47,893 nt of DNA from the NCBI GenBank assembly GCA_022792335.1, contig JAAWAV010000059.1:1-47893 (forward strand), written 5' to 3'. Positions 1 through 21,959 of this stretch are shown in pieces. Below the pieces are notes generated by a model. It ran no database searches. It had not been told where the DNA came from and worked only from the letters and a program-made list of their open reading frames with translations. How positions within the stretch are numbered: position 1 is the stretch's first letter; each line of letters begins with the position of its first letter. Source of the DNA: Lachnospiraceae bacterium (GTDB lineage Bacteria > Bacillota > Clostridia > Lachnospirales > Lachnospiraceae). The translations under genes were made by a program, and so were the position numbers.

Positions 1-31
1 AAATCCTGAACGGCGTTTTGGTGATGATCAT
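1..31 (-). CDS. GHMP sugar kinase, N-terminal fragment (cut by window edge)
   Basis: Only the first ten codons are in the window. They read MIITKTPFRI from an ATG at 31-29, after a strong AGGAGGAG ribosome binding site about 6 bases upstream. This start is typical of the D-glycero-D-manno-heptose 7-phosphate kinase (HddA) branch of GHMP kinases. It parallels the complete kinase at 15473-16459, which begins MIIARAPFRVSFCGGGSD. The gene runs leftwards off the window in the same direction as the cluster at 1731-16459, so a second sugar-nucleotide cluster probably continues outside. The family call rests on ten residues and one parallel, so it is suggestive only. Confidence 0.55.
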   Translation of the reverse strand, partial: MIITKTPFRI

Positions 32-104: not shown

Positions 105-139
105 AAAGCATCCTCTATACAACAAATATTTGGCTACAC
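105..139. repeat. 35-bp direct repeat, left copy (possible recombination site)
   Basis: This copy is identical over 35 bases to 16554-16588, in the same orientation, with no similarity on either side. It begins AAAGCATCCTCTATAC and ends TTTGGCTACAC, and contains the 10-bp palindrome CAAATATTTG (123-132). It lies 73 bases upstream of the partial kinase start at 31. Sharp boundaries around an exact repeat suggest a site-specific recombination site rather than a gene duplication. The plus strand can be read as KHPLYNKYLAT in both copies, which may be chance. Confidence 0.85.
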
Positions 140-218
140 GTTAAATAGAAGAGGGCATAGGAGCACTGAATTGTTATAGGGAATATTCGTTGAATGAGAT
201 GAAAAAGGAAAAAGAAGA

Positions 219-247
219 TTGATAATGCTTTCAAAATCGGATAGAAT
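219..247 (+). promoter_or_regulatory. Promoter for the AlbA-type gene
   Basis: TTGATA at 219-224 and TAGAAT at 242-247 are separated by 17 bases and lie 35 bases before the ATG at 282. This is a good sigma-A-type match, seen in sequence only. Confidence 0.6.
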
Positions 248-281
248 AAAACTATCATGAAGTGCAAAGGTGAATGGGAAT

Positions 282-1661
282 ATGAGTCTGACAAACATTG
301 GTCCGGAGACAGAAACTATAGAGTATAAGAAAAGTACTGGAGAAATGAAAGAAGCAATGCTGTCAATTGCTGCAATTCTGAATAAGCATCAAAAAGGGCA
401 GTTGTTTTTTGGTGTAAAAAATGATGGTACTGTGATTGGTCAGATCATTACGGAAGAATCCCTTCGGAAGGTAAGTCAGGCGATAGGAAACCATATTGCG
501 CCGGCGATTTATCCTGAAATTAAAGTGGTAAGGTTTGGAGAGCGAGATTGTATACAGGTCAATTTTGAAGGAAATCGATGTCCATATCTTGCCTATCATG
601 TACCCAGAATCCGCGTAGCAGATGAGGACCTGGTGATGGATCAGGATACATATGACGAAATGATACGAAAACGAGATGATATGAGATATTCCTGGGAGCA
701 AAAAGTCTCGGAGTATACAATTGAAGAAGTGTCTCAGGATGCATTCCGGGAATATCTGCAAAAGGCAAAGGATGCCGGTCGAATTATTTTTGAAGAAACA
801 GATATAAGAACTGTTCTGAATAAACTGGAGCTAATGAAAGGTGAGTACCTTTTAAACGCAGGCGCTGCCTTGTTTTGCAGCAGTGGAATCAATGAACTTC
901 AGATGGCTAAATTTGCTTCTAACGAACGATTAACATTTACGGATATTCGTCGTTTTACGGGTTCCATTATTGAACTGGCAAAAAAAGCAGAGCAGTATAT
1001 CATTGACGCCATGGATTGGCGTGTGGAAATTGGCGCTGGGCTTTCCAGGAAGGAAATACCAGAGATACCGATGGACGCCATCAGAGAGGCTATCATTAAT
1101 TCTTTTGGTCATAAGTTATTTGGATCCGGACAGAGTAATGAAGTAGCTATTTTTAAAGACCGCATTGAGATTTATAACCCAGGCCCTTTTCCGGTAGGAC
1201 TGACTCCGGAAATGTTTATAGATGGAAAATCAAGGCCTGTGCGAAGAAACCCTTTGATTACCCGGACCTTATATTATTCTAAGGATATGGAGAGTTTTGC
1301 AACTGGATTAAAACGAATTAGCACAGCGTGTAAGGAAGCCGGATGCCAGGTGAAATTTGAACAGCAGCAATATGGTTTTGCAGTTATATTCTATAGAAAA
1401 AAAGATAACTTGGGTAATGATACCCAAGTTAATGCCCAAGTTAATGCCCAAGCAGAGATAGCGACACGAATTTTGCAATATTGTCAACATCCCCGAAGTA
1501 AGAAAGAAATCGCAGATTATTTAGGATATAAATCTGTTAAAAGTATTACAACCGTGATAAACGTTCTGCTGGAAACAGAAAAACTGGCAAGGACCGTTCC
1601 TGATAAGCCGCATAGCAGAAATCAGAAGTATCTTACAAAAGCAAATTTTCCATATTCATAA
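282..1661 (+). CDS. AlbA-type ATP-binding protein with C-terminal helix-turn-helix (RecG-like COG2865 family)
   Basis: The N-terminal third has the AlbA_2 (Schlafen-AlbA_2) signature: ETIEYKKS, then AILNKHQKGQLFFGVKNDGTVIG. A middle ATP-binding part follows (AIREAIINSFGHK, then IEIYNPGPFP and NPLITRTLYY). A short repeat-rich linker (TQVNAQVNAQ) leads to a winged-helix-like end containing SKKEIADYLGYKSVKSI. Members are putative transcription or nucleic-acid regulators, often in mobile or defence-rich regions; their biochemical role is poorly known. I chose ATG 282, after AAAGG at 266-270, over GTG 270. The gene is convergent with the choline-type transporter and lies inside the segment bounded by the 35-bp repeats. 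Its role in the cassette is unknown; it could be cargo or a regulator. Confidence 0.85.
   Translation: MSLTNIGPETETIEYKKSTGEMKEAMLSIAAILNKHQKGQLFFGVKNDGTVIGQIITEESLRKVSQAIGNHIAPAIYPEIKVVRFGERDCIQVNFEGNRCPYLAYHVPRIRVADEDLVMDQDTYDEMIRKRDDMRYSWEQKVSEYTIEEVSQDAFREYLQKAKDAGRIIFEETDIRTVLNKLELMKGEYLLNAGAALFCSSGINELQMAKFASNERLTFTDIRRFTGSIIELAKKAEQYIIDAMDWRVEIGAGLSRKEIPEIPMDAIREAIINSFGHKLFGSGQSNEVAIFKDRIEIYNPGPFPVGLTPEMFIDGKSRPVRRNPLITRTLYYSKDMESFATGLKRISTACKEAGCQVKFEQQQYGFAVIFYRKKDNLGNDTQVNAQVNAQAEIATRILQYCQHPRSKKEIADYLGYKSVKSITTVINVLLETEKLARTVPDKPHSRNQKYLTKANFPYS
1407..1452. repeat. Inverted repeat followed by a 12-bp tandem repeat inside the AlbA-type gene
   Basis: AACTTGGGTA (1407-1416) and TACCCAAGTT (1421-1430) form a perfect 10-bp inverted repeat with a 4-base loop. 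From 1423 the 12-mer CCCAAGTTAATG occurs twice in a row (1423-1446), followed by its first six bases (1447-1452). The 12-mer encodes the QVNA linker repeats. Loss or gain of a unit keeps the reading frame, so linker length could vary between strains. Confidence 0.85.
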
Positions 1662-1667
1662 CGCAAT

Positions 1668-1701
1668 AGCGATGGTATTAAAAAGCAATGATACCGTCGC
1701 T
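1668..1701. terminator. Hairpin between convergent genes
   Basis: AGCGATGGTAT (1668-1678) pairs with ATACCGTCGCT (1691-1701), 11 bp with one G-T pair and a 12-base loop. It sits between the stop of the AlbA-type gene and the end of the BCCT transporter gene. A clear T-run does not follow on either strand, so termination is likely but not canonical. Confidence 0.45.
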
Positions 1702-1730
1702 TGACAGGGGTTGCATTACTTTTTCTTGTT

Positions 1731-3242
1731 TCATTCTTCCATATATGCTTTCGCGTCTTTGATAAAACTGATGGCAATCATTACTATCACAAATCCGATA
1801 GGAAAGGCCGCTATGATACTAACTGATTGCAGATTGTTCATAGAACTTTCAGAAAATACCAGAGCGATTGGCAGTATAATAAGCAAGATGCACCAAAGCA
1901 ATTGAATGGTTTTTTTCGGGGTTTCACCTTTCTCCAATTTGTGATAGCTATAACAGGAGGCTGTCAGCGCAATGGAATCAAAAGAAGTCGCATAGAAAGC
2001 GATCATTGCTAGTAATAGCACCATTAGTATAACAGGAGCGAAAGGCATGGTCTGGAACATTGAAATAATCATTCCATAAAGATCGCCCGTTGTATGATAT
2101 TGGGTAATAAAATCAACGCTCCCGGACATCTGCAGCCCCATAGAATAATTACCTAAGATAATAAAACTCAATAGCGTACTGCCAACGCCGAATACATAAC
2201 CTCCAAGGATTACCTGCTTTACAGTTCTCCCTCTTGAAATATTTCCAATGAAAAAAGGAGCAGCTACGCACCATACCATCCAATATGCCCAATAATAGAT
2301 GGTCCAGTTTTGAGGAAAGGAAGTTGTTCTTAATGGATCGGTATAGGTAGATAACTCAAAAAAATTTTGAACCATTTTTCCCAAAGAAGAGATTCCAGTA
2401 TCAATAATATATTTTCCTTCTCCACCAAAAAACAAAACAACGGTTAATAATCCAAAAAACAGATAAATACATGCCTTTGCCAGGAAACGGATTCCTTTAA
2501 ATCCGTGAAGAAGAGAATAGGTATAAATAAAACATGTGACGATCAAAATTACAATTGTAATGATTGTTTTATTTATTTCCAGATGAAACAGTTCCTTAAT
2601 CACATTAGCCATCAGTGGGGTGGCCAGGCTAAAGGTTGTTGCAGTTCCTGCCAATAATGCAAATACTGCAAGTAAATCAATGATACGACCTGCAATGCCG
2701 TCCGTATGTTTTCCAAGGACAGGCCTGCATGCTTCAGAATATTTTTGCCGATTTCTTTTTTTTACGTGAAGCATAAATCCAAATGCGACAGCCAGTACTA
2801 GATAAAATCCCCATGGAATGAAACTCCAGTGAAAGAGAGGGTATACTCCGGCCCATTCTTGGATGTTCCCTAATTCTTTCATCCGAGGATCTGCCGCGTA
2901 CAAAACCCATTCAGAAGGAGAGTAAAACAGAATATCGGCCGCAAGCCCACAGGTGAACATCATACACCCCCAGGAGAAAAAAGAATATTTGGGTTTTTCA
3001 CCCGGCTTTCCCAAAATGATATTCCCATATTTTGAAAATGCGAGAAATAAAGAAAGTAAAAAAATCCCCAGACCGATAACCAAATAATAACTGCCCACAG
3101 TATCGCCTAAAAAGAATCTGATTTTGCTTAATACCACATTGGACTGTTCTGGCATCCAGAAGAATAAGATGGAAAGAACTATTACAAAAGCCAAAGGAAC
3201 CAATGTGATCATCCAGTCAATTTTTCCTTTTCTCGGGTTCAT
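1731..3242 (-). CDS. BCCT-family transporter (choline/betaine/carnitine type)
   Basis: The protein has 503 residues and about twelve membrane helices. It carries the BCCT signature region WTIYYWAYWMVWCVAAPFFI followed by GNISRGRTVKQ around residues 310-340. Family members import quaternary ammonium compounds, coupled to Na+ or H+. The ATG overlaps the stop of the upstream LicC-like gene as ATGA, implying translational coupling. Next to a choline kinase and a cytidylyltransferase, the likely substrate is choline, fed into CDP-choline. Lic loci usually use a LicB permease for this step, so a BCCT protein would be a functional replacement. Last gene of the cluster; substrate inferred from context. 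Confidence 0.88.
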   Translation of the reverse strand: MNPRKGKIDWMITLVPLAFVIVLSILFFWMPEQSNVVLSKIRFFLGDTVGSYYLVIGLGIFLLSLFLAFSKYGNIILGKPGEKPKYSFFSWGCMMFTCGLAADILFYSPSEWVLYAADPRMKELGNIQEWAGVYPLFHWSFIPWGFYLVLAVAFGFMLHVKKRNRQKYSEACRPVLGKHTDGIAGRIIDLLAVFALLAGTATTFSLATPLMANVIKELFHLEINKTIITIVILIVTCFIYTYSLLHGFKGIRFLAKACIYLFFGLLTVVLFFGGEGKYIIDTGISSLGKMVQNFFELSTYTDPLRTTSFPQNWTIYYWAYWMVWCVAAPFFIGNISRGRTVKQVILGGYVFGVGSTLLSFIILGNYSMGLQMSGSVDFITQYHTTGDLYGMIISMFQTMPFAPVILMVLLLAMIAFYATSFDSIALTASCYSYHKLEKGETPKKTIQLLWCILLIILPIALVFSESSMNNLQSVSIIAAFPIGFVIVMIAISFIKDAKAYMEE

Positions 3243-3964
3243 TTTGCAATACCTCCCATATATTTCTGATAGCTGCTGTCCAATGCAATCAGTTCACTTA
3301 AACTATCGACCTCAATAATATCACTGGCATTCATTGGCCGGATTCCCAGATCGTAATCTTCAAAGTGGCAGAACATGACAACATCATCCCAATAAATCTG
3401 CCTGTTTTTCTTTTGATTAAATTCAATTTCCAAATGTCGTTTTAACTTCCGACCATCCTCAGCAGTCCATCGTGAAATGCTAAAGAGCTGCCATCCCTTT
3501 TTTCCACCTATGCGGGAACAAGAGACAACTCTATTATTTTCCACTTGTATCAGCCATTCCTTTGTTTCCTCGTCTGTCCAGACTGCATTATATCCGGACT
3601 TTTCAAATTCGGGGGAAAGAATCAAATCATTATAAATAATTTGATCGCCGTCAAGAATTATTGCTTCTTCAATATGTTCCCTTGCCACATAAAGAGAAGA
3701 AATATTATTACAAACATTGTATAGGGGATTTTCAATAATTTTTAATCCCTCATATTCTTTCTCCAAAATATCAAATTGTTCTTTTAGATAACCAGCAACT
3801 ACATAAATCTCGGTAATTCCGTTTTTGTGGAGACCCTGAATAATGGTATCAATCATTCGAACCCCATTGACCCGTATCAAAGGTTTTGGGGTAGTGAATG
3901 TGACTGGTTGTACGCGATTTCCTGTTCCGGCTGCAATAATAATTGCCTGTTTAACTGTATACAT
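3239..3964 (-). CDS. LicC-like nucleotidyltransferase (CTP:phosphocholine cytidylyltransferase)
   Basis: This 241-residue nucleotidyltransferase opens with the pyrophosphorylase loop IIIAAGTGNRVQPVTFTTPK, followed by PLIRVNGVRMID and the metal-binding region EEAIILDGDQII. The TFTTPKPL variant and the short length fit LicC, which makes CDP-choline from CTP and phosphocholine. I chose ATG 3964, preceded by GGAG with an 8-base gap, over a TTG at 3979. It lies 26 bases after the choline-kinase fusion and overlaps the transporter gene by 4 bases. Phosphoethanolamine or 2-aminoethylphosphonate are alternative substrates, since related enzymes use them. The locus therefore has two such nucleotidyltransferase domains. 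Confidence 0.8.
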   Translation of the reverse strand: MYTVKQAIIIAAGTGNRVQPVTFTTPKPLIRVNGVRMIDTIIQGLHKNGITEIYVVAGYLKEQFDILEKEYEGLKIIENPLYNVCNNISSLYVAREHIEEAIILDGDQIIYNDLILSPEFEKSGYNAVWTDEETKEWLIQVENNRVVSCSRIGGKKGWQLFSISRWTAEDGRKLKRHLEIEFNQKKNRQIYWDDVVMFCHFEDYDLGIRPMNASDIIEVDSLSELIALDSSYQKYMGGIAK

Positions 3965-3990
3965 GCTCTTTCTCCACAATTGTTGTTATT

Positions 3991-5763
3991 TCATCTGAAA
4001 TCTTTATGGAAAGATTCCATTGCAATTTTGTAATAGTCTTTTGCATATCTGTATTGCCGAAGCGAATATTCGCCAAATTCAATTCCTAGATTCCTTTTGT
4101 ATTCGCACCAGTTACTCCAAAGCAGACCGCCTGCAGCGATGTAGCAGTAGATTTTGACACGGGTTTCACTCCCACAATTATTTTCAAAGTAAATATCAAT
4201 CAAATGATCAATCTGCTCTTTATCATAAAGAGAATAGATACAAAACATTGCAAGATCTACATGCGGATCCTGCATTCCGGCATATTCCCAGTCAATTAAC
4301 CGAACGCTTTCAGTTCCATTTGAGTCTTTCACAAATAAAAAGTTGTCAGGTACGGCGTCGATATGAGTTAAGCATTTATCAGCAATATGCTGGTTTATAT
4401 AAGGCTGTAAAGACAAAACCTTCTTTTTTGTATGAAAATAATCTTTATATATGGATGCTTCTCCATTCCACAGAGTTTCATAAAATTCTATTTGTTTAAA
4501 AATATCAAATTCATGGTTGACGGATAACTGAAGTTGATGGAACTCTCTTAATTTTTTCATGCAAACTGTGAGATCTTTTTGATTATTAGGATCACATACT
4601 CTGGCATTTGGAAAAAATTCAGTGATTTTATAGCCATTCTCCGGGTTAATGTAAATAATATTATCGCAAAGATTTTTTTCTTTAATTGTTTTATAAACAG
4701 CCGCTTCTTCTTGTCGATTGATCAACTGATCGGTCCCTTCACCAGGGATGCGCATAATATATTTTTTGTTTTTACAAGTAAACAAAAAACATCGATTAGT
4801 CATTCCCTTTTTCAATACGGTTATATCCACAATTTCAGAAGCAGTAACTCTTAAGATCTGGGTAATGATACTGATTGCATCAGACTTTAAATGGTTCGAT
4901 TCTTCGTCCAATTCCCGGAGCTGCTCATATGTATTGATTTCCACAACGTCAGTGGTATGAACCACCTTTGCCGGAACAATCATTTTTCCTTTGTCGTAAA
5001 GGGCTTTTTCCCAAAATGAATCCTCATATTGCCTATCGGTATCCAGTCTTTTTAAGCTTTTTCTAACTAAATGACTCTTTTCTTCCGTGAGATAGGTGAT
5101 ACCAATCATCGCGTTTCCGCTCTGATTCCTGGAAACGGTTACCAGTTCCATCTTACGATTTACGCGAACAGTACTATCGTCGTCCACAAGATCAGAAACC
5201 ATATACCATGAACAAAATTCATATCGGTGAAAAGGGTTTCTGTTACACCAGACATCGCAAGGAATGATATAAGTGTTAGACAGATATTCCGTTACCAAAC
5301 TCATAGAGTGGAGATTATTTCTGGAGGCATAGAACGGATTAAAAATCAACTCGACATGAAACTCGTCAATGAGATATTCAAACTGTTCTTTCATAAATCC
5401 GACGACTATATAAATTTCGGTGATTCCAACTTCATGAAGCTGCTTTATGATACGCTCAATCAATGGTTCCCCATGAATCTCCATAAAAGCTTTCGGACGT
5501 TCAAGATTGATTGGAACCATACGCATTCCAAACCCTGCCGCTAAAATAATGGCATTTTTAGGAGAGTTGTTTTCAAGCTCCTGATAAGCTTTATCTGTAG
5601 GGCGAATCCGGGCATCCAGAAAACCTTCCATTATCAGATTTTTGATGGAGCGGTTTACTACTCCAAGAGAACAGCCGCATATTTCTGAAAGGATCCGCTG
5701 ATTGATAAATGGCTCCAGTAGAAGTGCATGCAATATTTCTGATTCTTGCCTTTTCAAAATCAA
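3991..5763 (-). CDS. Three-domain fusion: winged HTH, nucleotidyltransferase, choline kinase (LicA-like)
   Basis: Residues 1-60 look like a winged helix-turn-helix (FINQRILSEICGCSLGVVNR). About residues 68-290 form a nucleotidyltransferase (AIILAAGFGMRMVPINLERP, then KAFMEIHGEPLIERI). From about 300 to the end is a choline/ethanolamine-kinase fold with the catalytic loop HIDAVPDN and metal site LIDWEYAG. It should phosphorylate choline and activate the product as CDP-choline. The HTH suggests self-regulation of the locus. The start is TTG 5763, after AAAGGTGGA; a second TTG at 5757 is possible. A 146-base gap upstream could hold its own promoter. Which nucleotidyltransferase, this or the neighbour, serves which substrate is unknown. 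Confidence 0.85.
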   Translation of the reverse strand: MILKRQESEILHALLLEPFINQRILSEICGCSLGVVNRSIKNLIMEGFLDARIRPTDKAYQELENNSPKNAIILAAGFGMRMVPINLERPKAFMEIHGEPLIERIIKQLHEVGITEIYIVVGFMKEQFEYLIDEFHVELIFNPFYASRNNLHSMSLVTEYLSNTYIIPCDVWCNRNPFHRYEFCSWYMVSDLVDDDSTVRVNRKMELVTVSRNQSGNAMIGITYLTEEKSHLVRKSLKRLDTDRQYEDSFWEKALYDKGKMIVPAKVVHTTDVVEINTYEQLRELDEESNHLKSDAISIITQILRVTASEIVDITVLKKGMTNRCFLFTCKNKKYIMRIPGEGTDQLINRQEEAAVYKTIKEKNLCDNIIYINPENGYKITEFFPNARVCDPNNQKDLTVCMKKLREFHQLQLSVNHEFDIFKQIEFYETLWNGEASIYKDYFHTKKKVLSLQPYINQHIADKCLTHIDAVPDNFLFVKDSNGTESVRLIDWEYAGMQDPHVDLAMFCIYSLYDKEQIDHLIDIYFENNCGSETRVKIYCYIAAGGLLWSNWCEYKRNLGIEFGEYSLRQYRYAKDYYKIAMESFHKDFR

Positions 5764-5909
5764 TACTCCACCTTTCTCATGAACTTCTTTAAAAATACTT
5801 TTGTAGATTTTTCATTTCGATAATCAGTTATATTTCTGAGTGAAAGGGAAGGAGCACTTTCCCATTAACTGTCGTTTGATTCGGAGCAACAATTGCAATG
5901 TCATTTTTT

Positions 5910-6896
5910 TCAAGTAAAATAAAAGTAATCACCTGCCAGAGACTGGAGTATCTTCATCTCTTCGTCATAGCCAGGATACCGTTCCCAAAGTTTGGTGTTT
6001 CTGATTGAATTTTTAGGATTAAAATATTTAAACTTATTTATATGATCTTTCTCATCTAATTCCAAGAAATCTCGGATAGTCCTTGTCGTTTCTTCATATT
6101 TGTATAACATATCCTCAAATTGAATTTTCAGGACATTATCAGTCAAAATTTCTTTCGCCTGACCAATTCTCATATCAGAAAACTGCTTTGCAAATAATTG
6201 GACTTCAACAGGTAAGACGTGATCGTCAATATGCTGTTCTTCTATATAGACATCCCTTGGATCTCGATCAACCAAAATAACTTTTAGGTCCTCTGCATAA
6301 TTCATATATCTTTTAATGTTTGTCGTAGATACAAATTGATCCAGTATGATCAGGGATTGACGATCATGAAAAACACTTTTACATAGATTCTCCACGAATA
6401 ATCTGGTATTTCTATAAAACTCCTCCTTTGAGAGATGACTGTGATAGGAAACAGCTCCAGGAAAATAATTATAATCCGGTTTCTTTTTTAATTTCTCCGG
6501 CATGATTCTGTTGATAGCCCTTCGCATATAATAATAAGCTTTCATATAAACGGGGAAAATACTGATATCACAGTGCCAGTAACCATTAAAAGTAAAATCT
6601 TTTAAACTGTCAGCGTATTTTTGGGCATATATCGCCCAGTTTTTTCCAAATAATAGACTATAATGATGATGATATCGTTTGGCAAATTGTTCAAATCGTT
6701 TGATGGCAAAACCGCTGTTGAGTCGGTGCCAATTATCTATCAGCTGAAATTCCAAATCAGAAATTCCGTCAGGATCCTGTAGAAACCGGCATTCAACTTC
6801 CTGTTGTGGAAAAGAAACGTTTTTAAATTCTTTAATATAATCAACGACTGCACTTGAACCACTGGAGTGGTAACTGACACAAGTTACTTTTTTCAT
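5910..6896 (-). CDS. Sulfotransferase-family protein
   Basis: The N-terminus TCVSYHSSGSSAVVDYIKEF resembles the 5'-phosphosulfate-binding loop of PAPS-dependent sulfotransferases. Near residue 230 the stretch VILVDRDPRDVYIE matches their 3'-phosphate-binding motif. The 328-residue length is normal. No membrane segment or signal peptide is apparent, so it probably acts in the cytoplasm on a lipid-linked or precursor sugar. The ATG follows GGAGG by 9 bases, directly after the flippase gene. No PAPS-synthesis genes are in the window, so activated sulfate would have to come from elsewhere. The family is clear by motif; the acceptor is unknown. Confidence 0.75.
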   Translation of the reverse strand: MKKVTCVSYHSSGSSAVVDYIKEFKNVSFPQQEVECRFLQDPDGISDLEFQLIDNWHRLNSGFAIKRFEQFAKRYHHHYSLLFGKNWAIYAQKYADSLKDFTFNGYWHCDISIFPVYMKAYYYMRRAINRIMPEKLKKKPDYNYFPGAVSYHSHLSKEEFYRNTRLFVENLCKSVFHDRQSLIILDQFVSTTNIKRYMNYAEDLKVILVDRDPRDVYIEEQHIDDHVLPVEVQLFAKQFSDMRIGQAKEILTDNVLKIQFEDMLYKYEETTRTIRDFLELDEKDHINKFKYFNPKNSIRNTKLWERYPGYDEEMKILQSLAGDYFYFT

Positions 6897-8333
6897 TTAA
6901 CTTTTCCTCCGCTTAAAAATCATACTAAGTATGTCGCGATGAAAGAGGTAACACCATATCGCAGATAGGCTTAAATATATAGAAGCGCCTAATGCAATTT
7001 TGACGGACAGTGATATAAAATTATTTTCGATATCAATCAAATATATAGGAATAAACATCAGTATCCCAATTACTATAAAACTACATAAAACTTTAAGCAT
7101 TTCTGATAGTTCAATTTTTTTATGCAGACAAATCAACTCGGAAAATAATATCGTAAATTCGGAAACAGTAGTAGCAAAAGAAGCGCCAAAAGCACCATAT
7201 GAAGGAATAAGGAATGTATTTAAAATAATATTTATTAATATCCCCATAATTAAGCATCTGGCAAATATTCCATCTTTGCCAAAGGGCAAAAGATATTGGT
7301 TTTTCATGACATTCGCCAAGCTTATAAATACCATGGAAGGAACTAATATATACAGCAAATAAACGACAGAATCATATCCTTTTCCAAAGAATATGGGGAC
7401 AAATTCTTTTGCTACACCAGAGATGCCAAAAGATAAGGCACATACGGCAAAAGAGATAAATATAAAAGTGTCCTTATGGAGTTTTTTCAATTCATTCTCT
7501 TTTTTGTTCGTCACTTTATTCGTAATAGCCGGTAAAATGACGACGCCTAAAGCTGTTACCATACTGTTTGGAACTTGTATTATTTTTTCAGCGCTATCAT
7601 AATATCCAAGTTCTGTTTTTGTAGACATACCGCCAAGCATAATTTTGTCGAAATAGTTTAAGATACTAGCGGAAATCACAGGTAAAAAGAGGATCACATT
7701 TGGTTTCATATGCTGGAGGACCCTTCTCTTGGCTGGTAAAATGAATTTTACAGTTTTAATCAGCGCCGGCAATATGAAAATTTGTGAAATTACAGTGGCG
7801 CCAGATATGATGAATGTATACAACCAGATATCCTGTATCGATTTTACAAATACAATTATCAATAAAACGCTGCTTAACTTAATGATAATATTTCTGATTG
7901 AAATCAATTTAAAGTTTTCAATTCCAAAGAACAACCATGAAAAGTCGATAAAAACAGAGAGAATTTGGAAGCCCTGTAAGATTGATAAAAGTTTTGATTC
8001 AGAAAAAAACACGATATAGAGGACGTATAATAATGAGGTAATGGATGTTGTGAGTATTTGCATAACAAAAATCTCACTAAAGACCTGATTCAATTTATTT
8101 TTATCGTCCCGTACCTGTGCAATCGTTCTGCTCCCATAATCCGATATACCAAGCATTGCAAAGGAATAAAAATATTGCGCGATCGAATAAGTATAACTAT
8201 ATTCGCCGACGCCTGTGGGGCCAAACACTCTGGCAATATATGGGGCTGTGATTAATGGAGTAAATACAGTGACTATTTTATATAGCAAATTAAAAATATA
8301 ATTTTTTCTGATGCTTCTATTTTGACTTGCCAT
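6897..8333 (-). CDS. Wzx-type polysaccharide flippase (MATE/MOP superfamily)
   Basis: This 478-residue polytopic protein starts with a basic region, then NLLYKIVTVFTPLITAPYIA and RVFGPTGVGEYSYTYS, the N-terminal hallmark of Wzx-like repeat-unit exporters. It has about 12-14 hydrophobic segments. It should move undecaprenyl-linked repeat units across the membrane. The ATG follows AGGTTAGGATAAG, two bases after the upstream transferase gene stop. It is a distant counterpart of the flippase at 23211-24668, so each cluster carries its own exporter. Confidence 0.92.
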   Translation of the reverse strand: MASQNRSIRKNYIFNLLYKIVTVFTPLITAPYIARVFGPTGVGEYSYTYSIAQYFYSFAMLGISDYGSRTIAQVRDDKNKLNQVFSEIFVMQILTTSITSLLYVLYIVFFSESKLLSILQGFQILSVFIDFSWLFFGIENFKLISIRNIIIKLSSVLLIIVFVKSIQDIWLYTFIISGATVISQIFILPALIKTVKFILPAKRRVLQHMKPNVILFLPVISASILNYFDKIMLGGMSTKTELGYYDSAEKIIQVPNSMVTALGVVILPAITNKVTNKKENELKKLHKDTFIFISFAVCALSFGISGVAKEFVPIFFGKGYDSVVYLLYILVPSMVFISLANVMKNQYLLPFGKDGIFARCLIMGILINIILNTFLIPSYGAFGASFATTVSEFTILFSELICLHKKIELSEMLKVLCSFIVIGILMFIPIYLIDIENNFISLSVKIALGASIYLSLSAIWCYLFHRDILSMIFKRRKS

Positions 8334-8334
8334 C

Positions 8335-9507: not shown

Positions 9508-9512
9508 CAAAT

Positions 9513-10718
9513 CTACCACCTTAAAACCTTGTTTCCCTGGAACCGTCCAATATGTTCTACCAGCAATTCTAAAATAATAAAACTGTAGATGTAATGTTGA
9601 TATATAATGGTTCCGTTAATAAACGCAACAAAGACATAATACAAAATTACACACCACATAGTTAATTTATAGGTATGTTTCTTTAAACAATCGAAGTTCT
9701 TTATGAGTACATACATATGGGCAGTAAAACCGATAATCCCTGTGCTAATCAAAACTTCTATGAAATCATTGTGCGCCCATATTTCACGCCCATATTTCAG
9801 ACTGTTTATATGGTAGGAAAACCCAAATCCATTACCGAATAGAACGCCTGATAAGGAGGAGTGAAAATAGGAATCTAAATCAATCAGCCAAAAAACGGTA
9901 CGCCCATTTGTGAATAAATTAATTCCCGACCAGCGAGAATAAGAGTTGGGGTTTATAAATTTATCCATTAACCCAGAATGTATGAATCCATAAATGCCCA
10001 CTAAAATAATGAAAGGAACAAGAATGAGCTTGGAACTGATTTTTTTTATATATAATTTATAAGTCAAAAAATAGACGATTAGTACTGGCACAAGATAGGT
10101 TCTTGCTCCACATTGAAGTATGGCTAGTGCAAACGGCAAATTTACAAAAAGTTTTAACCAGTCATTTTTAATATCTCCGATTACCCAAAGCGCCAGACAC
10201 ATACTCATACAGCACCCACAAGCCAGAACATGATTGGAATATGCAAAGCCTACATAATATTTTCCTCCCCAGTTTGTGTTATAACAGGAGCTGAGAAAAA
10301 AACCTGTAATAATTATTAGAGCGTTTATCAGAACAATGATTTTTATGAAGCCTTTTCTGGCATAAAACACTTCGCGTAATTTATTTCTACATAAAGGATT
10401 TGTCATTTCGCATAAAATAAAAATTGTACTGTACCAATAAATTGCATTATCTAAACCATCAGAAAAAAAATCGGTTTCACGAAAAAGTCCGCTGATAAAC
10501 AATACGGTTGAAATCAAAAGTATAGCCAGATCTTTTTTCCGACAATGCTTGATGTACAATACCCCTGTCAAACACAATATCAAAAGCCCAAGTATTCTAT
10601 TAATAGGAATATAAGCATTCAGAATATTATATAGAAGAGTTGTAGTTGAAAACAAAATAAATATTTCGGTTAATATACTGTACACATTACAAAACTTTGC
10701 CTGATAGATTGATTTCAT
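9513..10718 (-). CDS. Wzy/O-antigen-ligase-like polysaccharide polymerase
   Basis: The protein is about 401 residues of mostly hydrophobic sequence with ten or more predicted membrane spans. A large loop near the C-terminal half contains GREIWAHNDFIEVLISTGII, the Wzy_C/O-antigen-ligase hallmark. It probably polymerises repeat units at the outer face of the membrane. ATG 10718 overlaps the previous stop as TGATG; an in-frame TTG three bases earlier is less likely. The next gene begins six bases before this stop or shortly after it, so the genes are co-translated. Confidence 0.85.
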   Translation of the reverse strand: MKSIYQAKFCNVYSILTEIFILFSTTTLLYNILNAYIPINRILGLLILCLTGVLYIKHCRKKDLAILLISTVLFISGLFRETDFFSDGLDNAIYWYSTIFILCEMTNPLCRNKLREVFYARKGFIKIIVLINALIIITGFFLSSCYNTNWGGKYYVGFAYSNHVLACGCCMSMCLALWVIGDIKNDWLKLFVNLPFALAILQCGARTYLVPVLIVYFLTYKLYIKKISSKLILVPFIILVGIYGFIHSGLMDKFINPNSYSRWSGINLFTNGRTVFWLIDLDSYFHSSLSGVLFGNGFGFSYHINSLKYGREIWAHNDFIEVLISTGIIGFTAHMYVLIKNFDCLKKHTYKLTMWCVILYYVFVAFINGTIIYQHYIYSFIILELLVEHIGRFQGNKVLRW

Positions 10719-11794
10719 CAAAATTTATTTCCTTCTTCCGAAATATTTTTATAAATTTTACGAACGCAGTCTAAATGTTCCGATAAACTGAATTTTGACG
10801 CTATCGTTTTAAACGCATTCTCACTTAATTTTCTTCGTAGTTTTTTATCTTTACTTAAACAATAGATAGAGCTTTTTAACGCTTCAATATCACCTGCTCG
10901 AATTAATATTCCATTTTTTTCACTTTGAATCACTTCAGGAATTGTTGCAATATTGGTTGCTATATTAGGAATCCCATAGGCCATGCTTTCTAAAATTGTC
11001 ATTGGAAGTCCTTCTCTGTAACTGGGCAAAACATGTACAAAGGTATTTTTAAAATACTTATCTCTTTCTTCCCTATTTACCCATCCAATATGAGCAATAC
11101 GATTATTTATACCCAAATCCTTAATTTTATCATAGATAGATGGTTCACCCTCACCACAAAGAATGAATTTAATATTTTCATCTAAGACAGCATCCAGTTC
11201 TCTGATAGCACGTAAAAAATCGAAAATCCCTTTTCTTTCAATCAGCCAACCAAAAAACATCACATATGTCGCGTTTACATTATAGGGATTGATTGCATAT
11301 GTGTTGACTGCATTATAAACCACTCTAATATTTGCGTTTGCGGCCTTATCTTTGATAAATTCACCTTGATTTTTTCCCAGAACGATATTTAGATCCACTT
11401 CATTAAAAATATGATTGATAAACTGTTTATTTTTTTCTGACTGTCTCAGATAAAACTCTGTATAGTCAATATGATGGTGCAGGATCACCTTTATTTTTCT
11501 TCGTTTTAAAAGCTTTGCAAGATATCCTTTTCGAAAAAAACTGCCATTTTCCGTCGTATGAATATGAGCCAGATCATAATGTCTAAATACCGTCAGAAAA
11601 AATATCCTTATATAAGCAATACAATAGAACCCCGCTTTCACTATATTGCTTTTATCAATGTGGGTCGGAATATATGTTATCTCAATATCATTCCAATCTT
11701 TGCAATTTAAATAATTTTTTATTACTGTAACCATTCCTCCGCCTACAGATAATTTTGACCCACACATGAGAACTTTTAATTTCTTATTTGTCAT
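10718..11794 (-). CDS. Glycosyltransferase family 4
   Basis: The 358-residue protein has the GT-B layout of GT4 enzymes: an N-terminal glycine-rich loop (SKLSVGGGMVTVIKNYL), an acceptor-site HHHIDYTEF, and the C-terminal donor motif SYREGLPMTILESMAYG followed by IPNIATNIATIPEVI. It transfers a sugar from a nucleotide donor to the lipid-linked repeat unit at the cytoplasmic face. It overlaps the upstream GT gene by 11 bases. Donor and linkage cannot be read from sequence; GDP-heptose is a plausible donor given the upstream genes. Confidence 0.9.
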   Translation of the reverse strand: MTNKKLKVLMCGSKLSVGGGMVTVIKNYLNCKDWNDIEITYIPTHIDKSNIVKAGFYCIAYIRIFFLTVFRHYDLAHIHTTENGSFFRKGYLAKLLKRRKIKVILHHHIDYTEFYLRQSEKNKQFINHIFNEVDLNIVLGKNQGEFIKDKAANANIRVVYNAVNTYAINPYNVNATYVMFFGWLIERKGIFDFLRAIRELDAVLDENIKFILCGEGEPSIYDKIKDLGINNRIAHIGWVNREERDKYFKNTFVHVLPSYREGLPMTILESMAYGIPNIATNIATIPEVIQSEKNGILIRAGDIEALKSSIYCLSKDKKLRRKLSENAFKTIASKFSLSEHLDCVRKIYKNISEEGNKF

Positions 11795-12554
11795 TTCGTC
11801 TTACCTTATATTTCTTTGCCAATCCAAAGATTCTCATATCATCTACAAAGTACCTTTTAAACATCCTCTTTGGTTCCTGTAGAAATCTAAAGAACCATTC
11901 CAGTCCTGTTTTTTGCATCCATAAGGGAGCTCTTTTTACTCTGCCAGCAATAAAATCAACGCATCCGCCCATGGTGATAGAGATGGGAACGTCATATTTA
12001 TCTTTGTTTTGATAGATGAATTTTTCTTGCTTGGGACAGCCTAAAAAAACAATTAATATATCGGCGTTGCTATTTCTGATTCTTTCATTCGCCATTTCCA
12101 ACTGTTCCAGCTCTTTTTCAAATCCAAATGGTGGAGAGTAGGAATCTACAATCTTCAGCTTGGGAAGTCGATTTTTGATATTTACGGTTGCTTCCTGTAG
12201 AACATCCTCTTTTCCGCCAAAAAGAAATATTCCATAATTTTTTTCGATTGCAAGATCAAATACATCCCAAACGAAATCAGTCATACAGACTCGCTCTTTT
12301 ATCGGAGTTCCAAGATATTTTGACAGTTTAACAATCATCTGTCCATCCGCCAAAATCAAATTGGCATTATCGCAGATTTGCTTTAATTCAGGATCATCCT
12401 GCATTTTTACAACAATATCAGAATTGGGGGTAACTACATAGTGACTTCCATTCTCTTGAATAAATCGATCAACACACGCTTTCGCTTCCGCGGATGTAAG
12501 ATTGTCGATATATGTATTTAAAAATGGAATCCTCTGTGTATTAACCACAATCAT
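11784..12554 (-). CDS. WecG/TagA/CpsF-family glycosyltransferase (GT26)
   Basis: The 256-residue sequence contains HYVVTPNSDIVVKM, ANLILADGQMIVKLSKYLG and FLGCPKQEKFI, then GGCVDFIAGRVKRAPLWMQK, the family's ordered motifs. These enzymes add the second sugar onto an undecaprenyl-linked first sugar in teichoic-acid or capsule assembly. The start is ATG 12554, after AAGGAGAAT. No gene for the first, membrane sugar-phosphate transferase is present in the window, so priming must be done from elsewhere, for example by a TagO/WecA-type enzyme. Confidence 0.92.
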   Translation of the reverse strand: MIVVNTQRIPFLNTYIDNLTSAEAKACVDRFIQENGSHYVVTPNSDIVVKMQDDPELKQICDNANLILADGQMIVKLSKYLGTPIKERVCMTDFVWDVFDLAIEKNYGIFLFGGKEDVLQEATVNIKNRLPKLKIVDSYSPPFGFEKELEQLEMANERIRNSNADILIVFLGCPKQEKFIYQNKDKYDVPISITMGGCVDFIAGRVKRAPLWMQKTGLEWFFRFLQEPKRMFKRYFVDDMRIFGLAKKYKVRRNDK

Positions 12555-12562
12555 ATTCTCCT

Positions 12563-13150
12563 TTATTGACTCAAATGATTTTTACCATAAAGATGCTGAT
12601 AAAGCACGCTTACCATTAAATGATCAAATACCATATGGATATCTTCTGTAACCTGCATGCTATTTACTGGAACATGCAGAGAAACATCGCTTAACTCCCT
12701 GAGTTTTCCTCCATTATAACCAGTAAGCCCAATGACTTTATTTCCACAATTCTTTGCATATTCGACTGCATTAATGATATTTTTAGAGTTGCCACTACCG
12801 GAAATTGCGATTACGATATCCCCTGGCTCAATGACTCCCTGAAGCTGAAACCGGAATATCTCTTCAAATCCAATGTCGTTGGCAATCGCCATAATTGTTG
12901 GAACATTATCGTTAAGACACTGAAACCGGAATTTATCTTCCACATATTCTGAGACGCTTTTTCCGAAATCATTCTGAAAATGTGACGCCGTAGCAGAGCT
13001 GCCGCCATTTCCAAACACATAGATTTTATTATGATTTTTCTGAGCTTCTAATAGTAGATTTAAGGTTTCATTGATTGCCTCCACATTCAGTTTCTGTAAT
13101 ATTTCGATCTCATACGCAATATAATCACGAATACTATTCTGAAATTCCAT
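12563..13150 (-). CDS. gmhA: Phosphoheptose isomerase (GmhA), SIS domain
   Basis: The SIS-domain signature KIYVFGNGGSSATASHFQND, then AISGSGNSKNIINAV and VNSMQVTEDIHMVFDHL, identify GmhA. It converts sedoheptulose 7-phosphate to D-glycero-D-manno-heptose 7-phosphate, the first step of the GDP-heptose route. ATG 13150 has an AGGAG 10 bases upstream and gives 195 residues, the usual length. An in-frame ATG at 13183 would add 11 residues but has no clear ribosome binding site. It sits three to four codons after hddC. Confidence 0.9.
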   Translation of the reverse strand: MEFQNSIRDYIAYEIEILQKLNVEAINETLNLLLEAQKNHNKIYVFGNGGSSATASHFQNDFGKSVSEYVEDKFRFQCLNDNVPTIMAIANDIGFEEIFRFQLQGVIEPGDIVIAISGSGNSKNIINAVEYAKNCGNKVIGLTGYNGGKLRELSDVSLHVPVNSMQVTEDIHMVFDHLMVSVLYQHLYGKNHLSQ

Positions 13151-13186
13151 CTTAGATTTCTCCTGTTCTGGTTCATTTGCCATATA

Positions 13187-14488
13187 TCAATTTGCGCCAA
13201 TTAGCTTAATGTGTTCAATTGCATCTAAGAAAGTAGTTACTTTATATTCAGGAGCAACCCTGTATTTTTTATTTTTTTCCGCTTCATCTGTTAAAACCAA
13301 TATTGTTCTCATCCCGGCATCAATACCGGTTAGAAGATTGGTTGTCGCATCACTGATATACCATGATTGTGAAAAATCAATATTATACTTTTCTGCCGCC
13401 CGTAATAGCATATGAATCTTGGAACTTTTACTTTCTTCATGAGCTTTTACTTTTATAATCTTTTCTTCGCAACTTTTATAAGGAGAGCGGAAGTAGAATA
13501 ATATATCGTCTAAATAAGCGCCCTGTTTTCCGAGTTCCATTTCTATCCTCATAGAAGCTTCTTCCAGTTCCTGGAAGGTGAAGCTTACTTTCGCAGTGTC
13601 TGGCTGATTCATTACAGCTATGGCAAGATAGAGAGACTGATTGATTTCCTTCATCGCTTGAATCATTTCGTCTAATAATTTAAAATCTTCCATTTTCCTG
13701 AGAAATTCAGCATATTGATTGAGGGGGCCCCAAAAATCTAAAAATATTGCTTTTTGCTTATGCCTAAGACACCTACCTGCAACAATTCCATTTCTAATAT
13801 CAGTTAAAACGGCTTTCAGTCTATCTGGTGTTCCCATATCTTTTACATATTCTGTAGAGCGATAAGCATAAACGTTCTGTTCGTTTATTTGTCCAGCTAT
13901 CAGTTCCTTTTCCAGATCCGTTTTTTCTGCTGTCTTTATCTTGTCCAGTAACCTGGGGCTCACACAATAAATACCGGCATTTACAAAATTATGATAGTAG
14001 AAATCTCGTTCAAGGTTTTTTAAGGCTATTTTCGTTACTTTGTTCTCTTCGTCTGCGATAACCACATCACTGTCATATGGATGTGCGTTCGGATGGCAAT
14101 AAAGGGTAATTAGACCGCCAGAATTTTTATGAAATTTCATAAAACGATTAAAATCGATATCCAGGATTAAATCTCCGAATAAAAGAACAAAATCCTCTGT
14201 TACGTTTCCCTTCAAATAATAAAGGGCTCCCGCAGTCCCCAGCGGTCTGTCCTCTATAAGATAGGCGATTTTTACTCCAAATTTTTGGCCGTCTCCAAAA
14301 TATTTTTGAATGATGTTACCTAGATATCCCACGATTAAAATTACTTCAGTTATTCCGCTTTTTTTAAGTGTCTCTATCTGATATTCAAGAATCGGCTTTC
14401 CGTCTATTGGAAACATAGGTTTGGGGATATCTTTTGAAATTGACTGCAATCGAGTTCCTTTTCCGCCCGCCATAATTACGGCTTTCAT
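13187..14488 (-). CDS. hddC: Heptose-1-phosphate guanylyltransferase (HddC-like) fused to a degenerate HAD domain
   Basis: Residues 1-235 form a sugar nucleotidyltransferase (MAGGKGTRLQSISKDIPKPM, LLFGDLILDIDF, DMGTPDRLK), expected to make GDP-D-glycero-alpha-D-manno-heptose. Residues 245-433 align with the GmhB/HAD-IIIA phosphatase layout, but the active site is broken. The DxD motif reads LDFWGPLN (Asp251, Trp253), the GDxxxD motif reads SDATTN (Asn384), and the cysteine-rich zinc region is replaced. The HAD part is probably structural or regulatory. ATG 14488 overlaps the upstream stop as ATGA, ruling out a longer reading from 14563. Bifunctional GmhB-HddC fusions are known; this one seems to have lost the phosphatase. 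Confidence 0.85.
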   Translation of the reverse strand: MKAVIMAGGKGTRLQSISKDIPKPMFPIDGKPILEYQIETLKKSGITEVILIVGYLGNIIQKYFGDGQKFGVKIAYLIEDRPLGTAGALYYLKGNVTEDFVLLFGDLILDIDFNRFMKFHKNSGGLITLYCHPNAHPYDSDVVIADEENKVTKIALKNLERDFYYHNFVNAGIYCVSPRLLDKIKTAEKTDLEKELIAGQINEQNVYAYRSTEYVKDMGTPDRLKAVLTDIRNGIVAGRCLRHKQKAIFLDFWGPLNQYAEFLRKMEDFKLLDEMIQAMKEINQSLYLAIAVMNQPDTAKVSFTFQELEEASMRIEMELGKQGAYLDDILFYFRSPYKSCEEKIIKVKAHEESKSSKIHMLLRAAEKYNIDFSQSWYISDATTNLLTGIDAGMRTILVLTDEAEKNKKYRVAPEYKVTTFLDAIEHIKLIGAN

Positions 14489-15456
14489 AGATAAATCCCC
14501 GCCTTTATTATGTCTTCTACCGTCTGCCTGACAGCTTCGTCTGAAGTATATTGGGGTTTCCACCCAGTTGATAAGATTTTCGAAATATCATAGGAAAATT
14601 TAGGTACATCGCCTTTCCAGCCTCTGTCTTCACCTGTATATTGAAAGGTTACATTTGTAAGTTTCATCACATCGACAACGATTTCAGCGATACGTGTGAC
14701 AGATGTTCCTTTACTTTCTACACTGATATTAAATATTTCCTCGCCCTGTTTAAAATTACTGGTAAGTTTTATAATCGCTTCAATGAGGTCAAGAACATAA
14801 ATATATGGTTTACACTGTGTTCCATCGCCTAAAATTTCTAATTCATGGGGTGTTTTTCTCAATTTGTTTATAAAATCAAATACCGCCCCGTGTGTTAGTC
14901 GTGGTCCGATAACATTCGGAAATCTGAAAATAACCACATTCATATCACACATAGAAGTATAAGAAGAAATAAATGCTTCTGAGGCAAGTTTAGCCCCTCC
15001 ATAATAAGAAATGGGTTTAATATCTCCAGTTGTTTCTTTCAATTTTACGTCCGGTATCTCTCCATAAACAGCAGACGTTGATGCAAAAAACAAATTCTTT
15101 ACCTTTGCTTTTCGCATTCCTTCTAAGATAGTACGGGTCGTTAAAAATGTATCATTAAAATCTATTGACGGTTCTTTTCCCCCTTTTTGGATATCTGAGT
15201 TAGCCGCCATATGGTATACGGCATCAATTGAATTTTCCGCAAAAAGTCTATCTACTTCTCTCTGTTTGGCAAGTTCTATTTGATAAAATTTGACCGTTCC
15301 AGTTTCAGATGGATTTTTATCTGAAAAAAGATGCCTGATATTCTGATCGCCAAAAATCAATTTGTCTGCAACAATAATATGATGTCCGTCAGCTATTAGA
15401 CGGTCGCATAAATGACTGCCAATAAACCCTGCTCCACCAGCGACTAAAACATTCAT
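14485..15456 (-). CDS. NAD(P)-dependent sugar-nucleotide epimerase/dehydratase (extended SDR)
   Basis: The N-terminus has the Rossmann glycine motif VAGGAGFIGSHLCDRL. The active site shows FASTSAVYG (Ser/Thr) and YYGGAK (Tyr and Lys of YxxxK), followed by NVIGPR and GDGTQCKPYIYVLDL. At 323 residues it is a normal extended SDR. It lies between the heptose kinase and guanylyltransferase genes, so it may remodel GDP-heptose; the substrate is not determined by sequence and a UDP-hexose is possible. ATG 15456 follows AAGGAAAGG. It is translationally coupled to hddC. Confidence 0.88.
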   Translation of the reverse strand: MNVLVAGGAGFIGSHLCDRLIADGHHIIVADKLIFGDQNIRHLFSDKNPSETGTVKFYQIELAKQREVDRLFAENSIDAVYHMAANSDIQKGGKEPSIDFNDTFLTTRTILEGMRKAKVKNLFFASTSAVYGEIPDVKLKETTGDIKPISYYGGAKLASEAFISSYTSMCDMNVVIFRFPNVIGPRLTHGAVFDFINKLRKTPHELEILGDGTQCKPYIYVLDLIEAIIKLTSNFKQGEEIFNISVESKGTSVTRIAEIVVDVMKLTNVTFQYTGEDRGWKGDVPKFSYDISKILSTGWKPQYTSDEAVRQTVEDIIKAGIYL

Positions 15457-15472
15457 GATGTTTTTCCTTTCC

Positions 15473-16459
15473 TTAAATAAAATCTCTATCTGTCATTACA
15501 ATGGTCGCACCGGAATTATCCATTTCAAAATCCATCTCACGTAAATCGTTCAAAGCTGCTCGGACACTCTTTTGTCTGTCTTTCGGAACATAGAAAAGCA
15601 TAAATCCGGCCCCACCAGCGCCCAACAGTTTTCCTCCTGTAGCTCCGGCATTGGTTGCACGAACATAAACATCATCAATAAAAGAAGTGGAAATACCAGA
15701 TGCCAGCGATTTTTTTAACATCCAGTTTTCATGAAGCAGATCCCCCATTGCATCAACGTTATTTTTCTGCAACTCTTTTTTTAATGTTTTTGCAATTTTG
15801 CACATTTGTTTTTGGATCATTGCTTTATCAAAACATGTAATATTTTGTGACTGTTCTTGTAAAATTATGGATGCTGTATGGGTGCCTCCCAAATAAAACA
15901 TAAGAAGATTACTTTCTAGTTTTTGGTAGCTTTCGGGCATCATGATAATTGGTTCGACATTCACAAAACCGTCTGGCATAAACTCGTAGAACTTCAATCC
16001 ACCAAATGCTGCCGCAAATTGATCCTGCTTACCGATTGGTTCTCCCAGTTTTTCAATTTCAACCGTACAAGCGTCTTTGGCAAGTTTATATTTGGATACG
16101 TATCGTCCGATATATGTGTAAAGAAGGTGAAGAAGGGCCACGGTAAAAGTACTGGAGGAACCCAGGCCTGTCCCCGCTGGTATATCGGCCATACTGGCAA
16201 TTTCTACCCCTTTTAAATTAAAATCACTAAGACATTGTTTAAAAATACGATGTTCAATTTCAGAGAAGTCCTGTACTACCTCTATTTTTGAGTATTTAAG
16301 AACAATCTGTTCTTTCTCAAAATAATTATGGATATTAAGATACATATATTTTCGAATGGTAGTGCTCAATACACATCCGCCGTACTTTTTATAAAAGCTT
16401 GGCAAATCACTGCCACCGCCGCAAAAGCTAACTCGAAAAGGCGCTCTTGCAATAATCAT
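15473..16459 (-). CDS. hddA: D-glycero-alpha-D-manno-heptose-7-phosphate 1-kinase (HddA), GHMP kinase
   Basis: The start MIIARAPFRVSFCGGGSD and the ATP-binding PAGTGLGSSSTFTVALLH, plus the C-terminal GGKLLGAGGAGFMLFYVP, are typical of HddA-type GHMP kinases (328 residues). It phosphorylates heptose 7-phosphate at C1. With gmhA and hddC it gives three of the four steps to GDP-heptose; the phosphatase step is in doubt (see the fused HAD domain). The ATG follows GGAAGAGGG. It is the first gene of the minus-strand cluster, 95 bases beyond the right 35-bp repeat. Confidence 0.9.
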   Translation of the reverse strand: MIIARAPFRVSFCGGGSDLPSFYKKYGGCVLSTTIRKYMYLNIHNYFEKEQIVLKYSKIEVVQDFSEIEHRIFKQCLSDFNLKGVEIASMADIPAGTGLGSSSTFTVALLHLLYTYIGRYVSKYKLAKDACTVEIEKLGEPIGKQDQFAAAFGGLKFYEFMPDGFVNVEPIIMMPESYQKLESNLLMFYLGGTHTASIILQEQSQNITCFDKAMIQKQMCKIAKTLKKELQKNNVDAMGDLLHENWMLKKSLASGISTSFIDDVYVRATNAGATGGKLLGAGGAGFMLFYVPKDRQKSVRAALNDLREMDFEMDNSGATIVMTDRDFI

Positions 16460-16507
16460 TCGCTATTTCCCTCTTCCTTATAATTTTAATATGAAATTTT
16501 AAAATGG

Positions 16508-16535
16508 ATGTTAGAAAAGATATATATAAACTCAA
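16508..16535 (-). promoter_or_regulatory. Candidate promoter of the minus-strand polysaccharide cluster
   Basis: On the minus strand, TTGAGT (16535-16530) and TAACAT (16513-16508) are 16 bases apart. This places initiation about 40 bases before the hddA ATG. It lies on the cassette side of the 35-bp repeat, so an excised or swapped cassette would keep it. Neither hexamer is perfect and the region is AT-rich. Confidence 0.4.
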
Positions 16536-16553
16536 ACGGATGAATGCGTATGA

Positions 16554-16588
16554 AAAGCATCCTCTATACAACAAATATTTGGCTACAC
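16554..16588. repeat. 35-bp direct repeat, right copy (possible recombination site)
   Basis: It is identical to 105-139 and in the same orientation, with no flanking similarity. The central palindrome CAAATATTTG lies at 16572-16581. It is one base from the T-tract of the recombinase terminator and about 60 bases from the recombinase stop codon. Between the two copies lie 16.4 kb holding the AlbA-type gene and the whole minus-strand cluster. Confidence 0.85.
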
Positions 16589-16589
16589 T

Positions 16590-16635
16590 AAAAATCTCCC
16601 ACCGGTGTGAGGAAGTTCATCACATTCGGTGGGAG
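16590..16635 (-). terminator. Rho-independent terminator of the recombinase operon
   Basis: CTCCCACCG with GTGTGA (16596-16610) pairs with TCACAT, a bulged T, then CGGTGGGAG (16620-16635). On the minus strand the hairpin is followed by ATTTTTA. It lies 11 bases past the recombinase stop and would separate the recombinase transcript from the polysaccharide cluster. Confidence 0.8.
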
Positions 16636-20494: not shown

Positions 20495-20533
20495 AAAAGC
20501 TTTCTCCTTTCGTAAATAAAGTGAATGAATATA

Positions 20534-20554
20534 TGGTAGGATAATATCATACCA
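20534..20554. promoter_or_regulatory. 21-bp palindrome over the recombinase promoter
   Basis: TGGTAGGATAATATCATACCA is symmetric at every position except one pair and the central base. Its minus strand contains an extended -10 (TGGTATGAT), 40-60 bases before the recombinase ATG at 20494. It looks like an operator for a dimeric repressor or for recombinase autoregulation; a recombination site is also possible. No known regulator gene is adjacent. Confidence 0.45.
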
Positions 20555-20577
20555 GAAAATAAGAGATGGAAAAATGA

Positions 20578-20606: not shown

Positions 20607-20659
20607 GATAAAAGATTTTGCAAAAACAGTAGAAATGATATCGGAAGAGGATAAAGAAA

Positions 20660-21955: not shown

Positions 21956-21959
21956 GAAG

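Follow-up and report, generated by a model that had tools for sequence, protein, structure and literature searches.

Cassette chromosomes of Enterococcus (enterococcal cassette chromosome, ECC) and Staphylococcus (staphylococcal cassette chromosome, SCC) are described as having tandem large serine recombinases (CcrA/CcrB), direct-repeat boundaries, of about 50 bp in ECC, and highly variable cargo (PMC6222049). The ssrA islands of Dehalococcoides, with the CcrB-like DsiB and DsiA, are described as tandem, with 20-bp direct repeats and an adjacent conserved 15-bp motif; the serine recombinase genes adjoin the boundary and the cargo is variable (PMC3146451). Among described systems these two appear most closely comparable to the locus reported here, which lies on contig C28 of a Lachnospiraceae genome (47,893 bp, analysed as one entire contig and called the window below). 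In it, two identical 35-bp direct repeats bracket a block with a polysaccharide gene cluster, next to the genes of two large serine recombinases (LSRs), LSR-A and LSR-B.

Like ECC and SCC, the locus has a tandem LSR pair and direct-repeat boundaries. Unlike them, where the pair lies inside the element between the attachment (att) sites, the recombinases here stand outside the block and no third repeat exists in the window; moreover, the 35-bp site lacks the TATCATAA core on either strand, no rlmH-type methyltransferase was found among the 40 window proteins scanned, the similarity to Ccr models is remote only, and the cargo is composed of glycan genes. A capsule-carrying SCC, SCCcap1, exists. 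The Dehalococcoides ssrA islands also have direct repeats beside CcrB-like recombinases. Their target is ssrA, whereas we found no tRNA or tmRNA gene in the window, and thus no insertion at a tmRNA within the contig, and the locus has two boundaries and one entire island.

The SP-beta prophage is excised from the polysaccharide gene spsM in Bacillus subtilis (PMC4191935). That excision restores a split gene in sporulation; in our locus no interrupted gene was identified. Site-specific recombination also controls glycan expression in Bacteroides, by flipping invertible capsule promoters (Mpi-type). The two copies here are direct, not the inverted repeats around a promoter that characterize an inverton, so deletion would be expected rather than inversion. 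Compared with an integron-like array, there are two sites and one entire cassette, and the site occurs in none of 144 other genomes. As in a site-specific island, there are identical direct repeats at both ends with unrelated flanks. Among the literature matches listed, there was no evident description of an LSR-driven glycan cassette in Lachnospiraceae.

The 35-bp direct repeats

The left copy (L, 105..139) and the right copy (R, 16554..16588) of the repeat are identical, located on the plus strand in the same orientation, and 16,449 bp apart. We tentatively regard them, at somewhat less than an even chance, as attachment-type boundaries of a glycan island mobilized by the LSR pair next to it. 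A sequence-only reading of this DNA had proposed cassette switching at these repeats, and the layout on which it built was confirmed. The flanks of the two copies are unrelated, their local alignment score being reached or exceeded by 40% of shuffles for the left flanks and 97% for the right flanks. Each copy leads the start of a left-pointing GHMP/heptose-kinase-like gene, with a gap of 73 bp at L and 94 bp at R. R is 58 bp from the stop codon of LSR-A, with a minus-strand hairpin, the terminator of the LSR operon (16596..16635), between them. The block of about 16.4 kb between the copies is composed of an AlbA-type gene and a glycan cluster on the minus strand.

The sequence-only reading would have failed if the sequence were dispersed in the genome, and this was ruled out: allowing up to 3 mismatches, the 35-bp sequence had two matches in the 2.67-Mb assembly (reversed control, 0), and its 20-bp core matched the same two places only. 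The repeat pair arose in none of 100 shuffles of the window. No third copy was found in the window, including the border between island and backbone at 31.2-32.45 kb; the next best ungapped match in the window reached 21/35. An exact 32-bp pattern of the site had no match in viral contigs. GC content rises from 33-39% in the bracketed block to 41% in the LSR genes and a second glycan cluster and to 48% in the backbone, whose genes begin at 32415.

The gene to the left of L, hddA0 (1..31, minus strand, translation MIITKTPFRI), comprises the first ten codons of a GHMP/heptose-7-phosphate-kinase-like gene and is known from 31 bases because the contig begins there. The peptide MIITKTPFR opens 5 of the 10 homologues listed. 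The starts of hddA0 and of hddA1, the kinase-like gene led by R, are identical at 19 of 31 bases, therefore the fully conserved 35 bp needs either constraint or recent recombination.

Under another explanation, the 35 bp would act in cis as a regulatory element, whether operator, part of a promoter or leader signal, common to two paralogous heptose operons, and the LSRs would lie nearby by coincidence. This explanation is unlikely, yet to be taken seriously: both copies have the same orientation ahead of the kinase-like starts, and a regulator dedicated to two operons would need no further copies in the genome. However, 35 invariant contiguous bases are unusual for an operator when the gene starts differ so much, and a consensus scan, of a kind that misses many promoters, showed no sigma-70-type promoter near L or R on the minus strand. 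The RNA of the site has no stable fold, and the scan for riboswitch and leader RNAs gave no Rfam family at the gathering score in the window. Moreover, the sequence is missing from all 144 other relatives, though a heptose-kinase homologue was found in 16 (E <= 1e-40).

If the repeats are att-like boundaries, the element would be a non-autonomous glycan island of about 16.4 kb, carrying the AlbA gene and a heptose/phosphocholine-type cluster. The tandem LSR pair outside the right boundary would be the likeliest enzyme to have placed it and in principle might also release it in circular form; after excision, the adjoining heptose-kinase cluster would stand next to the recombinases. We infer that the LSRs may recognize the repeat, that excision or exchange may follow, and that the surface glycan may then change. 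Should the repeats recombine, a gut Firmicute could lose or exchange an entire surface-polysaccharide cluster in one step. Phage sensitivity and immune recognition could change with it, the glycan being perhaps decorated with phosphocholine, and an LSR A/B pair equipped with a boundary repeat of its own would offer a starting point for a genome-insertion tool. The reading as a whole is interesting and unproven.

The recombinase pair and its relatives

LSR-A (16647..18689, minus strand) has 680 amino acids, and LSR-B (18710..20623, minus strand), which contains a zinc ribbon, has 637 as called, the true start probably being an internal ATG. In both proteins Pfam revealed a Resolvase catalytic domain followed by a Recombinase domain, the order that defines an LSR. 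Both reading frames are open, and the letters RVS... and SxSR..RN, which we take to be the catalytic motif, are intact in all 15 aligned LSRs including LSR-A and LSR-B. The nearest NCBIfam model of LSR-A is CcrB (140 bits, cut-off 900), followed by CcrC and XisF; that of LSR-B is XisF, with 67 bits in the Ccr comparison, and neither protein reached a curated Ccr cut-off. By these scores the pair is remotely akin to the cassette-chromosome recombinases, as kin and not as members. YokA structures, YokA being the SP-beta recombinase SprA, were among the matches of LSR-A.

Identical direct repeats of such length are typical of islands made by tyrosine integrases. Another recombinase, such as a tyrosine integrase that was lost or is encoded elsewhere, might have made the island ends, with the LSR pair unrelated; the position of the LSRs outside the block fits this. 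We regard it as distinctly unlikely, since no integrase was found among the 14 block proteins scanned, the window has no tRNA or tmRNA gene, and the LSR pair is only 58 bp away from R.

As a broad class, large serine recombinases are frequent here: LSR-A had matches at E <= 0.001 in 113 of 145 genomes. At E <= 1e-85, matches were limited to 17 genomes, its own included, among 397 sampled from the family. We inspected 13 other loci of the LSR family, 12 from those 16 other genomes plus G128; the line between family and control loci was drawn by us at an LSR-A match of about E <= 1e-100, plus G128, so that three controls (G057, G230 and G337) also reach E <= 1e-85, and G069 is in neither set. 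The order LSR-B then LSR-A was found in all eight genome loci where both genes are whole or nearly so (G004, G050, G169, G222, G258, G286, G289 and G292) and in all four inspected viral-contig loci (L151, L152, L153 and L156; four of 80 fetched), with the LSR-A frame split in L156. LSR-A stands alone in G067, G424 and G431, is truncated in G128, and lies at a contig end in G339.

The gene before LSR-B is of lysin type by Pfam in L151, L153 and G286 and by homology in L152 and L156, which indicates that the LSR pair also travels in phage-like DNA. The module lysin, LSR-B, LSR-A is conserved in the phage-like L151, L152, L153, L156 and L064/L065 (G286), and a third LSR exists further along in L151 and G286.

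It is improbable that the locus is a stranded relic, in which the LSR pair was left over from a phage-like element and the repeats are fossils with no present movement. The occurrence of the family beside lysin genes in phage-like contigs speaks for it, as do the housekeeping or metabolic neighbours scanned at G067, G222 and G258 (12 proteins in all); against it, the LSR frames are open, the catalytic motifs intact and the repeats still exact.

With 13 window glycan proteins as references, a glycan match was found within 8 kb of the LSR genes in 4 of the 13 other family loci (G004, G067, G169 and G431) and in 0 of 20 control LSR loci; with references that included family-locus proteins, the counts were 5/13 and 0/20. 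These counts carry no chromosomal-background rate, the control contexts are unannotated, two of the four loci belong to one genus, and several family loci have short flanks. The LSR family thus adjoins glycan genes more than the control LSRs do, a modest difference that is suggestive only.

The nearest LSR relative is in G004, of the same genus, with 67% identity over the alignment and about 51% near the C-terminus. In favour of the repeat as the LSR site, G004 has the same pair order, then a hairpin, then an AAAGCAT-bounded dyad at the matching place, 85 bp from the LSR-A stop, and the window site shares this AAAGCAT start. Nucleotide-sugar genes are located at least 4 kb beyond LSR-B in G004.

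Several results weigh against attachment-type boundaries served by the LSR pair. The left cluster is represented by 31 bases at the contig end, and the LSR genes (16647-20623) are outside the bracketed block (105-16588). LSR integrases normally join unlike sites, and identical 35-bp copies are for this reason atypical of them. The palindrome CAAATATTTG, earlier proposed as a crossover centre, is present in the site (a palindrome of at least 10 bp arises in 2.2% of site shuffles), but no extended dyad covers the whole 35 bp, 57% of shuffles reaching its score. The sequence-only reading had looked to related genomes for the same site with different cargo, and here it was disappointed: the site occurs in 1 of 145 genomes, the window's own, and no genome with alternative cargo was found. 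The dyad in G004 can just as well be an RNA hairpin preceding a run of T and is single-copy in that genome, and its contig ends 32 bp beyond. In L151 and L152 the homology extends past LSR-A, so this family does not in general have its att site immediately behind LSR-A. Release of a circle, finally, is read from the arrangement of the repeats.

The other family loci weigh on the same side. Counting direct repeats of at least 17 bp that begin no more than 700 bp from the LSR ends and over 1 kb from their partner, 12 of the 13 had none (longest, 16 bp); in G004, G050, G289 and G339 one or both flanks are shorter than 1 kb. The 17-bp matches in G128 belong to a dispersed repeat unit of its own. 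Approximate 30-bp repeats near the LSR ends reached at best 21-23/30 in nine other loci, figures that have no chance baseline, with 29/30 in G128 (its own tandem unit) and 30/30 in the window.

In G128 (L045:10777-11270), a 75-bp unit containing a dyad of the GATGATAC...GTATCATC type occurs seven times directly upstream of LSR-B, and G289 (L066:3996-4141, at a contig end) contains 55-bp dyad repeats just before LSR-B.

The boundary of an excisable island is, as we see it, a more modest reading than cassette switching, which stays conjectural because the site was found in none of the relatives and in G004, the nearest by its LSRs, the contig ends so soon beyond the equivalent spot. The wider proposal is a dedicated glycan-cassette exchange locus in Lachnospiraceae, where a domesticated phage-derived LSR pair inserts, deletes or swaps tandem clusters at the 35-bp site; we consider it doubtful. 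It is equally doubtful, as part of that proposal, that the site precedes the first gene of each cluster and that the cluster beside the recombinases varies between strains or cells.

Glycan gene clusters

The minus-strand cluster in the block contains thirteen genes, with the heptose-kinase-like gene first (start at 16459) and the phosphocholine-type genes and a transporter last. The first gene, hddA1 (15473..16459), encodes a heptose-7-phosphate-kinase-like protein (Pfam GHMP kinase; NCBIfam HddA 153 bits, cut-off 600); no second hddA1-like gene was found in its own assembly. It is followed by genes encoding an NAD-dependent epimerase/dehydratase (14485..15456, Pfam), an HddC-GmhB-like fusion (13187..14563, Pfam; NCBIfam under cut-off) and a sedoheptulose-7-phosphate isomerase-like protein, GmhA (12563..13183, Pfam SIS; NCBIfam gmhA under cut-off). 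Two glycosyltransferases come next, one of WecG/TagA type (11784..12554, Pfam 7.3e-57) and one of group 1 (10718..11794, Pfam). A 402-amino-acid protein (9513..10721) without Pfam or NCBIfam match is 31% identical to a protein of a glycan cluster in G007. Further along are a CDP-glycerol glycerophosphotransferase of TagB/F type (8335..9519, Pfam PF04464), a Wzx-type polysaccharide flippase (6897..8333, Pfam Polysacc_synt) and a weak sulfotransferase-like protein (5910..6896, Pfam Sulfotransfer_3, under cut-off).

The phosphocholine-type part comprises a fusion of winged helix-turn-helix, nucleotidyltransferase and choline-kinase domains (3991..5763, Pfam), presumably LicA/LicC-like, a nucleotidyltransferase (3239..3979, Pfam NTP_transferase), presumably LicC-like by context, and a BCCT choline/betaine-type transporter (1731..3242, Pfam 1.1e-122). 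Pfam reported no LicD-type transferase among the block proteins. A gene triplet resembling the phosphocholine-type genes at 1731-5763 was seen in a faecal scaffold (L149). Faecal records named 'Bacteriophage sp.' showed 70% DNA identity to the transporter in other gene contexts, with no LSR match in the comparison of window proteins.

On the plus strand, the AlbA-type gene (270..1661) encodes a regulator- or helicase-like protein with SLFN_AlbA_2 and HATPase_c_4 domains (Pfam; PHROG 12156 'DNA helicase'). In PADLOC it matched pAgo-type models weakly, at about 25 bits. Relatives of this AlbA-type protein were seen on plasmids in two Mycoplasmopsis records.

Beyond the LSR genes, a divergent second glycan cluster (20660..31265, plus strand, Pfam) encodes a membrane protein, an unknown protein, a flippase, four GT2 glycosyltransferases and YfhO. 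We take the membrane protein (20660-21955; no Pfam match, weak NCBIfam match) as a likely chain-length-type protein. The same-genus genome G007 contains a cluster similar to that in the block, with heptose kinase, HddC-GmhB, GmhA, WecG, GT4 and the 402-amino-acid protein, located downstream of and co-directional with a gene whose protein is 21% identical to that of 20660-21955. In the window, the kinase-led cluster begins at the repeat and the gene of the 20660-21955 protein lies across the LSRs, reversed. Another genome carries two heptose-kinase clusters that are oppositely oriented and about 4.4 kb apart (L099, G099:C14:16000-35999).

Contig and genomic setting

The assembly contains 2.67 Mb in 61 contigs and is 87.7% complete. 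A contig-end artefact, with the first 139 or so bases misjoined and L not beside the AlbA gene in the cell, is very improbable: L is 104 bp from the end of a contig in a fragmented assembly, and bases 1-104 have no other real match there (14-19-base matches only), but a 35-bp overlap is shorter than the usual final k-mers, and the kinase frame opening at base 31 makes sense and has a ribosome site of AGGAGG type.

On the backbone side, orthologues of the histidine kinase adjoining the glycan region exist in 7 of 10 genus relatives, and the order of the genes around it is conserved. Four of the seven (G001, G004, G006 and G007) have over 5 kb of sequence on the left side, and at this syntenic place we found no matching glycan genes; the comparison covers the glycan region as a whole rather than a vacant site flanked by L and R. 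The border at the response-regulator/kinase pair may be a variable hot spot in the genus. In three of the seven relatives (G005:C78, G009:C26 and G010:C54), the contigs end within about 1.1 kb of this pair, next to the orthologue of window 32415-34465, on the side where the window has its glycan region.

Where the second glycan cluster gives way to the backbone, two short proteins composed only of a Spo0A C-terminal DNA-binding domain are encoded (31398-31754 and 31871-32233). They are a tandem, diverged pair with 75% DNA identity over 300 nucleotides. Near the right end of the contig, at 47634-47885, there is an inverted repeat of 39 bp, its gap being 2 bp, with short direct repeats adjoining.

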